Shown here: positions 1,004 to 11,160 of the stretch, piece after piece
Position numbering within the stretch: the first letter of the stretch is position 1
Layout of the letters: every line of letters begins with the position of its first letter
Assembly (NCBI GenBank): GCA_016926135.1
Contig: JAFGPH010000044.1
Coordinates: 1 to 11,265 of the forward strand
DNA: 11,265 nt
Direction: 5' to 3'
DNA from: Deltaproteobacteria bacterium
GTDB taxonomy: Bacteria > Desulfobacterota > DSM-4660 > Desulfatiglandales > HGW-15
The notes under the pieces: generated by a model
What the model saw: only the letters and a program-made list of their open reading frames with translations
Told to the model about the DNA's origin: nothing
Databases searched by the model: none
Translations under genes and position numbers: made by a program

Positions 1004-2647
1004 ATGGCTACAAAGATCATGATCGATCCGATTACCAGGATAGAGGGTCATCTCCGGATTGAGGTGGAGGTGGAAAACGGCAAGGTGAAGAACGCATGGA
1101 GTTCAGGCCAGATGTTCAGGGGCATCGAGATGATCCTGCTCGGCAGGGATCCCCGCGATGCACACCACTTCGTGCAGCGCTCCTGCGGGGTCTGAACGTA
1201 CACCCACGCCCTGTCCTCGGTGAGGGCAGTCGAAAATGCAGTAGGTGTCAAGATCCCCGAAAATGCGCGCATCCTGAGGAACCTTCTCCATGGCGCCCAG
1301 TTCCAGCATGACCATATCGTCCATTTCTATCACCTCCATGCCCTGGACTGGGTAGATATCGTGAGCGCCCTGAAGGCGGATGTACCGAAAACCGCGGCCC
1401 TGTCGGACAATGTAAGCAACGCTCCCTGGGGCGGCACCTCCTACTTCAAAAGCGTCCAGCAGCGCCTCAAAACCTTTGTGGACAGCGGGCAGTTGGGACC
1501 CTTCACCAATGCCTACTGGGGCCATCCCGCTTACAAGCTTACTCCTGAGGCCAATCTCATGGCTGCGGCCCACTACATCGAGGCCCTCCGGCTCCAGGCG
1601 AAGTCGGCAAAGATGCACGCCATCTTCGGAGGCAAGAACCCGCACCTCCAGTCATTGGTGGTGGGTGGGGTGACCTCCGTGAGGGACCTCACGCCGGACC
1701 GCATCGCCCAGTTCCTCTACCTCTGGAAGGAAACTCAGGACTTCGTCAAAAACGTGTATATCCCCGATCTCCTGGCCGTGGCATCCTTTTACAAGGACTG
1801 GGGGGCCATCGGAGGCACCACCAATTTTCTTGCCTGGGGTGATCTCCCCGAGACCGATAAGGAACCGGAGAGCCTCTTCATGCCCAGGGGCGTGATCATG
1901 AAACGGGACCTCAAGGGTGTAAAGATGGCCCAGCAGGATAAGGTAACCGAACACGTGGCCCACTCCTGGTACGAGGAGGGCTCGCCAAAGCATCCCTACA
2001 AGGGAGAGACCAAACCCAAGCCCGGGGACTACAAGACGGATACGAAATATTCGTGGTTCAAGGCCCCACGCTATGAGGGTGAGCCCTGTGAGGTGGGACC
2101 CCTTGCGAGGGTGCTGGTGGCCTATGCCAGAGGCATGAAGGAGATCAAGCAGGTGGTGGACACCACGATCACCAAACTCGGCATTCCCGTAACAGCCCTC
2201 TTCTCCACCCTGGGAAGGACGGCGGCCAGGGGTCTTGAAACCGTGGCCATCGGGGATGCCATGGAAAGATGGATCATGGAATTGGTGGATCGAGTGAAAA
2301 AGGGCGACCTCAAGACCTACCAGCCCTGGGATTTCCCCGCAGGCACGGTCCGGGGGGTCGGCCTGAATGACGTGGCCAGAGGAAGCCTCGGCCACTGGAT
2401 CGAGATCAAGGACAAGAAGATCCACAATTACCAGTATGTGGTCCCGTCCACGTGGAATCTTTGCCCCAGGGATGAAAAGGGAAAGAAGGGGCCGGTGGAG
2501 GAATCCCTCATTGGAACCCCGGTGGCGGACCCCAAGAAGCCCCTGGAGGTGCTACGTACGGTTCATTCCTTCGATCCCTGTATCGCCTGCGGCATCCATG
2601 TTATCGACCCCAATTCCAATCAGGTTTACAAAGTGAGGGCTCTCTAA
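1004..2647 (+). CDS. hynA: [NiFe] hydrogenase large subunit with in-frame TGA (probable selenocysteine 64)
   Basis: This is the catalytic subunit carrying the Ni-Fe site. The 547-codon frame is continuous from ATG 1004 (SD AGGAG at 994-998) to TAA 2645-2647, apart from TGA at 1193-1195 (codon 64). Protein similarity carries on without a shift across the TGA. The N-terminal motif reads R-S-C61-G-V-[TGA64]-T-Y-T-H68, where the family has RxCGxCxxxH, so the TGA replaces the second, bridging cysteine. The C-terminal motif DPC526-IA-C529-GIH532 is all-cysteine. After H532 comes a 15-residue tail starting VID, the expected endopeptidase cut. E14 (RIEGH), D103 (HDH) and R459 match known active-site surroundings, but the usual PRG is A458-R459-G. 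A hairpin at 1206-1230 fits the bacterial SECIS rules. Automatic gene callers will split this gene into 1004-1195 and 1220-2647. Selenocysteine is an inference; mutation or sequencing error remains possible. Confidence 0.9.
1206..1230 (+). promoter_or_regulatory. Candidate bacterial SECIS hairpin
   Basis: GCCCT (1208-1212) pairs with AGGGC (1223-1227) around a 10-base loop (1213-1222) that begins with G and contains CGGTG. Two more pairs (1206-1207 with 1229-1230) extend the stem past a bulged A at 1228. Seventeen bases separate the TGA (1193-1195) from the loop. This matches the described bacterial SECIS pattern: a short stem, a G within the first two loop bases, and the apical loop roughly 16-37 bases after UGA. 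SelB binding is inferred; five-pair stems are common by chance in GC-rich coding DNA. Confidence 0.5.
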
Positions 2648-2721: not shown

Positions 2722-3213
2722 ATGAACCCACTTCACATCATGGTTTTGGGGATCGGCAGTCTCCTCTTCAGGGACGAGGGCTTCGGCATCCGCGTCGTCC
2801 AGAGGTTGGAGGATCTCTATGAGTTTCCGGAAAACGTCTCCCTCGTGGACGGCGGTGTGCTGGGCGTGAATCTCCTCGGCGTCATGTCTGAAGCGGACCA
2901 TCTCATCGTGGTGGATGCCATCAGGAATCGCGGGGAACCGGGCACGCTGTACCGTCTGGCAGGAGAGCAAATCCCTGCCAGGGTGCGGGCGAAGAACTCC
3001 CTTCATCAGGTCGATTTCCTGGAGGCCCTCACCCTCTGCCAGGCCCTTGACAGGGTCCCTGAAACCGTGATAGTGGGCATCGAACCTGAGGACATTGACA
3101 CGCTTTCGGTCGAACTGACTCCCATCCTCCAGTCAAGGATAGACGACGTGATAGAGATGGTGCTCCAGGAGATGTCCCGACTGGGCGTGCATTACAGCAA
3201 GAGGAGTCCCTGA
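2722..3213 (+). CDS. Hydrogenase maturation endopeptidase (HyaD/HybD/HycI family)
   Basis: This nickel-dependent cytoplasmic protease removes the C-terminal tail of the large subunit after the Ni-Fe site is complete; the matching tail (after H532) is present in the upstream gene. The 163-residue protein has the family layout: N-terminal GIGSLLFRDEGFG (residues 10-22), VVDAI (63-67) and LHQVDF (94-99). E19, D65 and H95 correspond to the nickel-binding Glu, Asp and His of HybD. The usual GxGN turn reads GIGS here, a small deviation. ATG 2722 is the first possible start because an in-frame stop precedes it at 2716; ATG 2740 is an alternative. No Shine-Dalgarno sequence is visible before either, and the gene starts 15 bases after a terminator-like hairpin, so translation may be weak. 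It ends two bases before hypC, so the two are probably cotranscribed. Confidence 0.93.
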   Translation: MNPLHIMVLGIGSLLFRDEGFGIRVVQRLEDLYEFPENVSLVDGGVLGVNLLGVMSEADHLIVVDAIRNRGEPGTLYRLAGEQIPARVRAKNSLHQVDFLEALTLCQALDRVPETVIVGIEPEDIDTLSVELTPILQSRIDDVIEMVLQEMSRLGVHYSKRSP

Positions 3214-3215
3214 GG

Positions 3216-3446
3216 ATGTGCCTTGCCATTCCCTCCAAGATCGTGGACATCAAAGACGGCCTTGCCACCATCGATGTGGAAGGGGTGAGGAGATCTGCGA
3301 GCCTTCTCCTCCTGGAAGACCCGAAGGTGGGGGACTACGTGATCGTTCATGCAGGCTTTGCACTCCACAAGATCGACGAGGCGGATGCCATGGAAACCCT
3401 CAAGATCCTCCGGGAGGCCCTGGCGCTTACAGAAAAGGACACATGA
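3216..3446 (+). CDS. hypC: Hydrogenase maturation chaperone HypC
   Basis: HypC is a small chaperone that, with HypD, builds the Fe(CN)2CO unit and delivers it to the large-subunit precursor. The 76-residue protein opens with MCLAIPS, the family hallmark; C2 is the essential, iron-ligating cysteine once the initiator Met is removed. The compact beta-barrel sequence (IVDIKDGLATIDVEGV, then VGDYVIVHAGFALHKID) is typical of the family in both content and length. The start is two bases after the endopeptidase stop, with GAGGAG at 3201-3206 inside the upstream gene as ribosome binding site. Its TGA overlaps an ATG that opens a 35-codon frame reaching to hypD. Confidence 0.96.
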   Translation: MCLAIPSKIVDIKDGLATIDVEGVRRSASLLLLEDPKVGDYVIVHAGFALHKIDEADAMETLKILREALALTEKDT

Positions 3447-3553: not shown

Positions 3554-4645
3554 ATGGGCATCAGGCACGTGGAAGAATACCGTGATCCGAAGATCGCCCG
3601 GGGCATCGCCGATCGCATCCGTGCGCTCAGCAGGAAGAAGATTCGCTTGATGGAGGTTTGCGGCACCCACACCGTGTCCATCTTCAGAAACGGCATCCGG
3701 GGCCTGCTGCCGGCATCCATCTCCCTCCTCTCGGGCCCCGGGTGTCCGGTCTGCGTCACGGCCCAGAACGAAATCGACGCCTGTATCGCCTTCTGCCGGC
3801 TGGAAGATGTGATCATAACCACCTTCGGCGATCTCATGAGGGTGCCGGGCACGGATTCCTCTCTTCAGAAAGAACGGGCCAGGGGCAGGGATGTGCGCGT
3901 GGTCTATTCCACCTTCGACGCACTGGAGGTGGCCAGAAAGCATCCCGATCAGCGCGTCGTTTTCCTCGGCGTGGGTTTCGAGACCACCGCGCCCACCATC
4001 GCGGCATCCATTCTTTCCGCCAGGGAGCAGGGAATCGAAAACTACCTTGTCTTCTCCGCCCACAAGCTCATCCCGCCTGCCCTGACGGTCCTGATGGAGG
4101 CGGAAGAGCTGAAGATTGACGGTCTCATCCTTCCAGGCCATGTTTCGGTGATCATCGGCGTAAAGGCTTACCTGCCCCTGGTCGAGAAGTACGGGATTCC
4201 CTGTGCCGTGGCCGGGTTCGAACCTGTAGACATCCTTCAGGCCGTCCATTCCCTGGTGGATCAGATCGAGAGCGGCAATGCGAGGGTGGACAACTGTTAC
4301 CCGAGGGCGGTTGCCCCCGAAGGCAACCCGAAGGCCCAGGATGTCATGAACCGGGTCTTTGAAACGAAGGATGCGGTCTGGAGGGGAATCGGTTCGATTC
4401 CGGGCAGCGGGCTCGGGATCAGGCGGGAATACTCATCCTTAGATGCACAGAAAACCCTCCATATTCACCTTCCTGTTTCAAGGGAGCCCAACGGGTGCGC
4501 CTGCGGCGAGATTCTGACCGGAGCCAAAATTCCGCCCGAATGCCCTCTCTACCGAAAGGCATGTACTCCCTCCGACCCCGTAGGGCCCTGTATGGTCTCC
4601 AGCGAGGGGACCTGCGCCGCCTACTACCGCTACCATACCCCGTAG
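3554..4645 (+). CDS. hypD: Hydrogenase maturation protein HypD (Fe-S scaffold for Fe(CN)2CO assembly)
   Basis: HypD is the cytoplasmic iron-sulfur protein on which, with HypC, iron receives its CN and CO ligands before insertion into the large subunit. The 363-residue length is usual. Signature motifs appear in order: MEVCGTHT (C36), GPGCPVCVT (C64, C67), GFETTAPT (141-148), FSAHKLIP (167-174), PGHVSVIIG (194-202) and GFEP (221-224). The C-terminal part carries cysteines 315, 317, 330, 337, 346 and 354 in the CACGEIL...PVGPCMVSSEGTCAAYY context that holds the [4Fe-4S] cluster. ATG 3554 follows AGGTGA at 3545-3550, a slightly short spacing. hypA, B, E and F do not follow, so the rest of the maturation set must lie elsewhere in the genome. 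Confidence 0.97.
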   Translation: MGIRHVEEYRDPKIARGIADRIRALSRKKIRLMEVCGTHTVSIFRNGIRGLLPASISLLSGPGCPVCVTAQNEIDACIAFCRLEDVIITTFGDLMRVPGTDSSLQKERARGRDVRVVYSTFDALEVARKHPDQRVVFLGVGFETTAPTIAASILSAREQGIENYLVFSAHKLIPPALTVLMEAEELKIDGLILPGHVSVIIGVKAYLPLVEKYGIPCAVAGFEPVDILQAVHSLVDQIESGNARVDNCYPRAVAPEGNPKAQDVMNRVFETKDAVWRGIGSIPGSGLGIRREYSSLDAQKTLHIHLPVSREPNGCACGEILTGAKIPPECPLYRKACTPSDPVGPCMVSSEGTCAAYYRYHTP

Positions 4646-10692: not shown

Positions 10693-11160
10693 TTACCCCT
10701 TCGGTGGAGCAGAGTCAAGGCAAAAACCCTATTCAAAGACAGCGAGCATATTTTCATCTGTCTTGACAAGACGGCTTTTTGCCAAGAGGACTATGGCAAA
10801 CCTTTCAGGGTGCGGCTTCAGTTCATGAGACGCATTTGCGACAGGGCGGGAGTGAAAAGATTCGGCTTCCATGCCATCAGGCACCTTTCGGCTTCCATCC
10901 TTTATGGACTGGGATACGATGTGGCAACCATCCAGGCCATTTTGAGACATAGAAGCCCGAATACCACCGAGCGATACCTCAAGACCCTTGGAGTTGAGGA
11001 CATAAGGCGTGCCATGGAAGATCTGTCCCGGCAGAGGGCGAAGATGTCCCCGCTGGTGCCAATGGAAGAGAGGTGTGAGTGGGACTTTATGAAAGAAAAG
11101 CCGTTTGAAAAGCCGTCAACTTCTCAAACGGCAAGGGCAAGGTTGGTGTGTGTCAAATAA
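10693..11160 (+). pseudogene. Tyrosine recombinase (phage-type integrase) remnant, N-terminus missing
   Basis: This is the 3' part of a site-specific tyrosine recombinase gene. The frame is open from just after TAG 10690-10692 to TAA 11158-11160. Recognisable homology begins near 10735 (SEHIFICLDKTAFC) and runs on through RRICDRAGVKRFGFHAIRH. Catalytic residues of the C-terminal half are present: the HAIR box (HxxR), H of LRHRSPNTTERY, and the nucleophile Y of ERYLKTL. The arm- and core-binding domains and the part holding the first catalytic arginine are absent, and the region upstream (10548-10692) does not encode them. A GTG at 10810 could start a 116-residue product, but that would lack an active site. 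It lies 24 bp from the 3' end of a tRNA-Glu gene, the classic place for such an integrase, and marks an old, decayed integrative element. Base composition looks less GC-rich than the hydrogenase region. Confidence 0.82.
11100..11132. repeat. Inverted repeat in the 3' end of the integrase remnant
   Basis: GCCGTTTGA (11100-11108) pairs with TCAAACGGC (11124-11132), and past one A-C mismatch AAG (11110-11112) pairs with CTT (11120-11122), leaving a 7-base loop. It sits 52 bp from the tRNA 3' end, inside the last codons of the remnant. It may be a recombination-site (arm or directionality) element or a transcription terminator lacking a T-run. Confidence 0.5.

Follow-up and report, generated by a model that had tools for sequence, protein, structure and literature searches.

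The question raised by this locus is whether a TGA codon standing in the place of a metal ligand of a [NiFe] hydrogenase interrupts the gene or is read as selenocysteine (Sec). The window, i.e., the whole stretch of 11,265 nucleotides that was analysed, carries the large-subunit gene on the + strand (1004-2647). It encodes a subunit of group 1 type and matches PF00374 over the full length of the profile (737.3 bits, positions 1-508 of 508), and its frame gives 547 residues before a TAA stop, the sole internal stop being a TGA at codon 64 (1193-1195). The nearest sequences of this gene are those of Desulfobacterales.

The TGA codon among the metal ligands

The large subunit is accompanied in the window by partner and maturation genes, all on the + strand. 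The small subunit (12-947), with a twin-arginine signal, is recognized by TIGR00391 (408.1 bits, cut-off 179.5), TIGR01409, PF14720 and PF01058, and starts at ATG 12-14, preceded by GGAGGT. Downstream lie a maturation endopeptidase of the HyaD/HybD type (2722-3213; TIGR00140, 159.7 bits), HypC (3216-3446; TIGR00074, PF01455) and HypD (3554-4645; TIGR00075, 467.1 bits). The hydrogenase is likely periplasmic. Near the end of the window, 10810-11160 encode the C-terminal portion of a protein of the phage-integrase family (PF00589). The protease and HypC genes end in ordinary TGA stops, as do seven of the eleven window genes checked in total, and a genome-wide reassignment of the code was therefore rejected.

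The TGA takes the place of the second Cys of the RxCGxC motif, in the sequence R-S-C61-G-V-TGA64-T-Y-T-H68. The best solved relative, the periplasmic [NiFe] hydrogenase of D. vulgaris Miyazaki F (1h2a; 736.2 bits, residues 4-546), has the same four ligand positions, residues 61, 64, 526 and 529 of the window protein pairing with 81, 84, 546 and 549 in the alignment. All four Ni ligands of 1h2a are cysteines; in contrast, codon 64 of the window, which pairs with Cys84, is a TGA with a SECIS-like hairpin behind it. Cys84 and Cys549 bridge Ni and Fe in the D. vulgaris enzyme (PMC12117559), and the TGA thus marks a predicted Sec at the Ni-Fe bridging position. The other three ligands of the window protein are Cys61 (TGC, 1184-1186), which pairs with the Ni ligand Cys81, Cys526 (TGT, 2579-2581), at the position held by Sec in classical [NiFeSe] hydrogenases, and Cys529 (TGC, 2588-2590), which pairs with the other bridging ligand, Cys549. 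The original prediction had described a 547-codon frame intact save for TGA 1193-1195, and had placed this codon exactly on the second, bridging Cys of the N-terminal motif; the frame reading and the alignment to Cys84 of 1h2a bear out both points. Under the standard code, the open frame runs from GTG 1220 to 2647 (475 aa) and lacks the N-terminal ligand motif; consequently, such genes are likely to be misannotated.

Recurrence of the codon and the downstream hairpin

A scan of one genome per GTDB species yielded 108 relatives of the window gene, and the best 80 of these (65-84% identity) were used to define the state of codon 64 within clade A. Among the 78 that cover it, the codon is TGA in 50, TGC or TGT in 28, and TAA or TAG in none, giving a set of 51 TGA genes (the 50 relatives and the window) and a set of 28 Cys genes. 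Throughout the aligned codons of the 80 loci and the window, the only stops are TGA at 61 and 64, and neither TAA nor TAG occurs among the 43,772 aligned codons. Nine of the 50 TGA relatives carry TGA at both positions (L012, L015, L016, L017, L023, L034, L035, L043 and L078; hereafter UxxU). The C-terminal motif cysteines are Cys in all 79 covering sequences of the 81, codon 526 being TGT or TGC in 79/79. On the clade A tree, 10 to 12 state changes are required, at least five of them forced by starred branches.

A second sample of 291 genomes of one order, overlapping those of the one-per-species scan, also contained carriers. Among the matches listed, 115 span codon 64 at an identity of 67% or more; one in-frame TGA is present in 56 of them. 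Of these 56, 47 were read, and every one has its TGA at codon 64 together with seven or eight of the 8 hairpin pairs. One of the 47, L188 (G459), shows a frame change after codon 427, due to mutation or assembly error. Of 395 genomes in a phylum-wide sample, 8 show the clade A pattern of TGA plus hairpin. Cys stands at residue 64 in the five full-length database proteins nearest to that of the window (87-88% identity), in a list biased by gene callers that stop at TGA. One genome listed with TAA (G475) was rejected as a case, since it has TGT at codon 64 and its match is split between two frames.

Downstream of the TGA, a SECIS hairpin is predicted at 1211-1229 (+ strand), CTGTCCTC-GGT-GAGGGCAG, on the basis of comparative pairing and synonymous conservation across the TGA genes. 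It begins 15 nt after the TGA, and its apical loop (1219-1221) begins 23 nt after it. By consensus, a bacterial SECIS is a hairpin that follows the UGA at a short distance and has a G in its apical loop; the window feature agrees with this in each of these respects, the hairpin being conserved as well. The same sequence or near variants are present in 51/51 TGA genes, all with GGT or GGC as the apical loop. Furthermore, the two gene sets differ sharply in pairing: of the pair cells, 403 of 408 are formed in the TGA set and 117 of 224 in the Cys set, and seven or more of the 8 pairs are present in 51/51 TGA genes, compared with 1/28 Cys genes. Codons 70-77 rank top of 540 windows for synonymous conservation in the TGA genes and 413 of 531 in the Cys genes, and Arg74 is encoded by AGG in 51/51 TGA genes; 26 Cys genes have Arg at this position, and 6 of them use AGG.

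Covariation is thin. Both sides of a pair changed in three cells, from C-G to U-A (L010, L022) and from U-G to G-U (L020), a number of such pairs that 33 of 500 shuffles also attain; this alignment comprises 30 of the 51 TGA sequences, with the ends of L020 and L032 a few bases off and the stem in register. Among synonymous recodings of the window alone, 61 of 20,000 form all 8 pairs at this place and 48 of 2,000 fold equally well. Folded in its 56-nt context, the window hairpin is not unusual compared with shuffles (z 0.57), and, as this single-fold test was not significant, comparative tests were used instead. An Rfam scan of 1100-1400 with E up to 10 returned no SECIS family and one weak unrelated match. 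In two relatives, L054 (6190-6192) and L205, codon 64 is a Cys codon and the hairpin is intact, resembling a fossil of a recent return from Sec to Cys, after which a retained hairpin is expected.

The sequence just upstream of the TGA also shows a preference. The preceding codon (1190-1192 in the window) is GTC in 49/51 TGA genes, in 8/8 genes of clade B (see below) and in 19/28 Cys genes, and the UxxU genes read TGAGGCGTCTGA in 9/9 cases; a context effect on recoding is possible. Codon 66 encodes Met (ATG) in the clade A UxxU loci and L039, and Tyr in 37/51 TGA genes.

The reading frame beyond the TGA is well preserved. Among 36 close TGA pairs, the 15 closest give dN/dS values of 0.03-0.15 over codons 65-547; the median is 0.078 over 491 unsaturated of 1275 TGA pairs and 0.152 over 196 of 378 Cys pairs. 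Judging from these ratios, the codons beyond the TGA are under purifying selection. Ten genomes, 8 of them TGA genomes, were searched for PF00374 genes; 6 contain no other than this large-subunit gene, and 5 of these 6 are TGA genomes.

Further clades and the selenocysteine machinery

Two further groups carry the TGA at the same codon. Clade B consists of eight hydrogenases (L151-L158), about 49% identical to the window protein, in which the top window of synonymous conservation (of 494) begins 7 codons after the TGA. A hairpin, CTCGGTC-CGGGC-GATCGAG, is predicted 20 nt after the TGA; its 7/7 pairs are possible in 8/8 genes, and the stem appears in 5/8 minimum-energy folds. Pairing alone was rejected as a discriminator in this clade, because L159, one of four near relatives with Cys, is likewise able to form the complete set of 7 pairs; the clade B argument therefore rests on the synonymous lock. 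In clade C, about 52% identical, the TGA is at codon 64 in L202 and L203, and at both 61 and 64 in L201. Here the hairpin, CAGCTC-CGTGA-GAGCTG, begins 17 nt after the TGA, and, of the 567 codons compared between L201 and L202, 299 differ, none of them among codons 65-79. A candidate for a further case (G287, L204) was rejected, since it contains a TAG and its TGA lies at codon 97.

Clades A, B and C belong to different starred clades of a tree of 69 proteins, and Cys relatives surround each of them. This topology suggests that TGA64 was probably gained three times independently, and at least twice, three gains being the simplest reading. The hairpins of clades A and C occupy the same position, and a shared origin with losses is therefore conceivable; there may have been two gains, or Sec may be older and have been lost many times. 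On balance it is likely that bridging-selenolate [NiFe] hydrogenases originated on three occasions within Desulfobacterota, with a separate SECIS in each case, that UxxU forms with two selenolates at Ni, one terminal and one bridging, followed at least twice, and that these enzymes form a hidden class, chemically distinct from the known [NiFeSe] enzymes and cut short by gene callers.

The machinery for Sec insertion is present in most of the relatives' genomes tested. In 14 clade A TGA genomes, SelB was found over the cut-off in 14/14, SelA in 13/14 and a canonical tRNASec above 70 bits in 11/14. Eight further clade A TGA genomes gave SelB in 7/8, bringing the total to 21/22. SelB was found in 7/8 clade B and 2/3 clade C TGA genomes, with tRNASec in 4/8 (above 70 bits) and 3/3, respectively. 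No SelB over the cut-off was found in G554 (clade A), G650 and G112. Many of the genome records are MAGs, of unstated completeness. Six Cys genomes gave SelB in 5/6, SelA in 6/6 and tRNASec in 6/6; since such genes occur in both groups, the machinery was discarded as a means of telling TGA carriers from Cys carriers. On one contig (G124:C67, 43909-45618 and 47100-48992), a Cys relative of clade B and selB are separated by about 1.5 kb.

Some genomes have an additional, divergent selB, next to which lies an additional tRNASec-like gene (L094-L100, in G004, G011, G018, G006, G010, G009 and G020), and by coordinates G240 (C222) has such a pair too. The second tRNASec-like gene has U instead of G at the discriminator position, and U73 marks tRNACys. 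Seven of these tRNA genes were read: L100 has the anticodon GCA, the other six UCA. The pair is present in five of the 14 TGA genomes (G004, G006, G009, G010 and G011) and was not seen in the other nine, eight of which have a canonical tRNASec. It occurs in 4/5 UxxU genomes (G009, G010, G011 and G240, not G008) and in 2/10 single-TGA genomes among those searched for tRNASec and SelB. The second selB is also present in the single-TGA genomes G602 and G102.

Decoding of codon 64 and relation to known enzymes

Taking these data together, TGA 1193-1195 is very probably read as Sec by SelB acting on the hairpin at 1211-1229, which would yield a [NiFe] hydrogenase with a selenolate bridging Ni and Fe. 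A nonsense mutation, an assembly error or a decaying gene is extremely improbable: TGA is a single base away from TGC and TGT, and frame breaks do occur in the TGA relative L188 and in the Cys relative L073, whose match splits into two frames, but the same codon is TGA in 50/78 loci and in two further clades, TAA and TAG are absent from the aligned codons, dN/dS is far below 1, the hairpin is frozen, and five of eight TGA genomes searched have no other PF00374 gene. A second alternative is that SelB and the hairpin direct decoding of the UGA as Cys by a tRNACys-like UCA tRNA, producing an ordinary [NiFe] hydrogenase. The second selB/tRNA pair with its U discriminator, found in four of the five UxxU genomes examined, speaks for such a route, and PMC8762117 cites a 2018 paper whose title describes recoding of the Sec UGA by cysteine through a non-canonical tRNACys and SelB. 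Nevertheless, this decoding is very improbable, given that the pair occurs in just five of 14 TGA genomes, that eight of the other nine have a canonical tRNASec, and that SelA is present in 13 of the 14. The UGA might also serve mainly as a selenium-dependent switch, giving a 63-residue product when selenium is scarce and the Sec enzyme only when it is plentiful. Recoding does compete with termination at a Sec UGA and requires sufficient selenium (PMC4513850); however, a switch leaves unexplained why, in each of three clades, the TGA coincides with a metal ligand, and why codons 61 and 64 can carry it jointly, and it adds to Sec insertion rather than replacing it. As the main function of the codon it is accordingly very improbable.

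Recoding to Sec64, as put forward in the original prediction, is thus supported by the recurrence of the TGA, the frozen hairpin, the sel genes in related genomes and the two additional clades. Of the checks proposed with it, the count of TGA at this alignment column gave 50 of 78 relatives, with carriers in the order sample as well; the search for sel genes recovered SelA, SelB and tRNASec in most relatives' genomes tested; and the window gene is free of decay, TGA64 being its sole internal stop and purifying selection extending past it.

For Sec insertion, SelB would bind the hairpin at 1211-1229 and insert Sec at UGA 1193-1195, and we infer that this takes place in the window's own organism. 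Maturation would proceed through HypC, HypD and the protease as in the Cys enzymes. By analogy with its Cys homologue, the selenolate of residue 64 would then bind both metals, bridging Ni and Fe. In the UxxU relatives, Sec61 would add a second selenolate on Ni, and a single hairpin could suffice for the two UGAs, which lie 23 and 32 nt ahead of the start of its loop. The selenium may alter catalysis or aid restoration of the site after oxidation; easier recovery after oxidative or sulfide damage may be offered as a speculative role.

Discussion of Sec in [NiFeSe] hydrogenases concerns one site, where it is a non-bridging ligand of Ni and relays protons. Recurrent bridging Sec in separate clades, if true, would mean that selection favours selenium at another site, where proton relay is not an obvious reason for it; the UxxU site would hold two selenium atoms. 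Such enzymes would offer natural test cases for the effects of selenium on Ni-Fe electronic structure, oxidation damage and H2 turnover. Standard gene callers would truncate or miss the TGA64 hydrogenase, which has no second PF00374 gene beside it in five of the eight TGA genomes searched. We know of no natural hydrogenase with selenium at the Ni-Fe bridging position. None was found in the literature searched, which excluded preprints, and a mention in Zhang and Gladyshev 2007 (Olavius symbiont) or Evans 2021 is possible. The hydrogenase-related selenoproteins named in PMC13188914 and PMC9312934 are FrhA, MvhA/VhuU and FrhD/MvhD/VhuD, with [NiFeSe] as a class name, and PMC8318568 names the F420- and methylviologen-reducing hydrogenases. 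Bacterial UxxU selenoproteins (PMC13188914, Table 1) likewise have two Sec codons three residues apart; unlike the present proteins, in which both Sec would be Ni-Fe ligands, those noted there are not hydrogenase large subunits.

The closest experimental counterpart is E. coli Hyd-2, in which engineered Sec at each of the four ligands, including residue 64, gave active enzyme (PMC11212049). The C64U variant shares both residue number and position with the predicted Sec64 and is active in H2 oxidation; however, it is man-made by TAG suppression and less active per mg than the native enzyme, whereas the window has a natural TGA (PMC11212049). The variant singled out by the authors was C546U, which behaves markedly differently in voltammetry (PMC11212049); these data suggest that the change in bias would be smaller for Sec64 than for the classical Sec site. 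The latter, the first Cys of the C-terminal motif, is residue 546 in Hyd-2 numbering (PMC11212049). The classical [NiFeSe] enzymes (HysAB) resemble the window case in being a natural replacement of Cys by Sec at a Ni ligand in sulfate reducers, but their Sec is a non-bridging ligand, and at that codon the window has TGT (Cys526). The window large subunit is not a classical HysA: besides the Cys in place of a C-terminal Sec, it scores 429.8 bits against NF045518 (HysA), under the cut-off of 780. Against NF033181 (NiFeSe_hydrog), which is described as nickel-dependent hydrogenase large subunit, it scores 596.6, just under 600.
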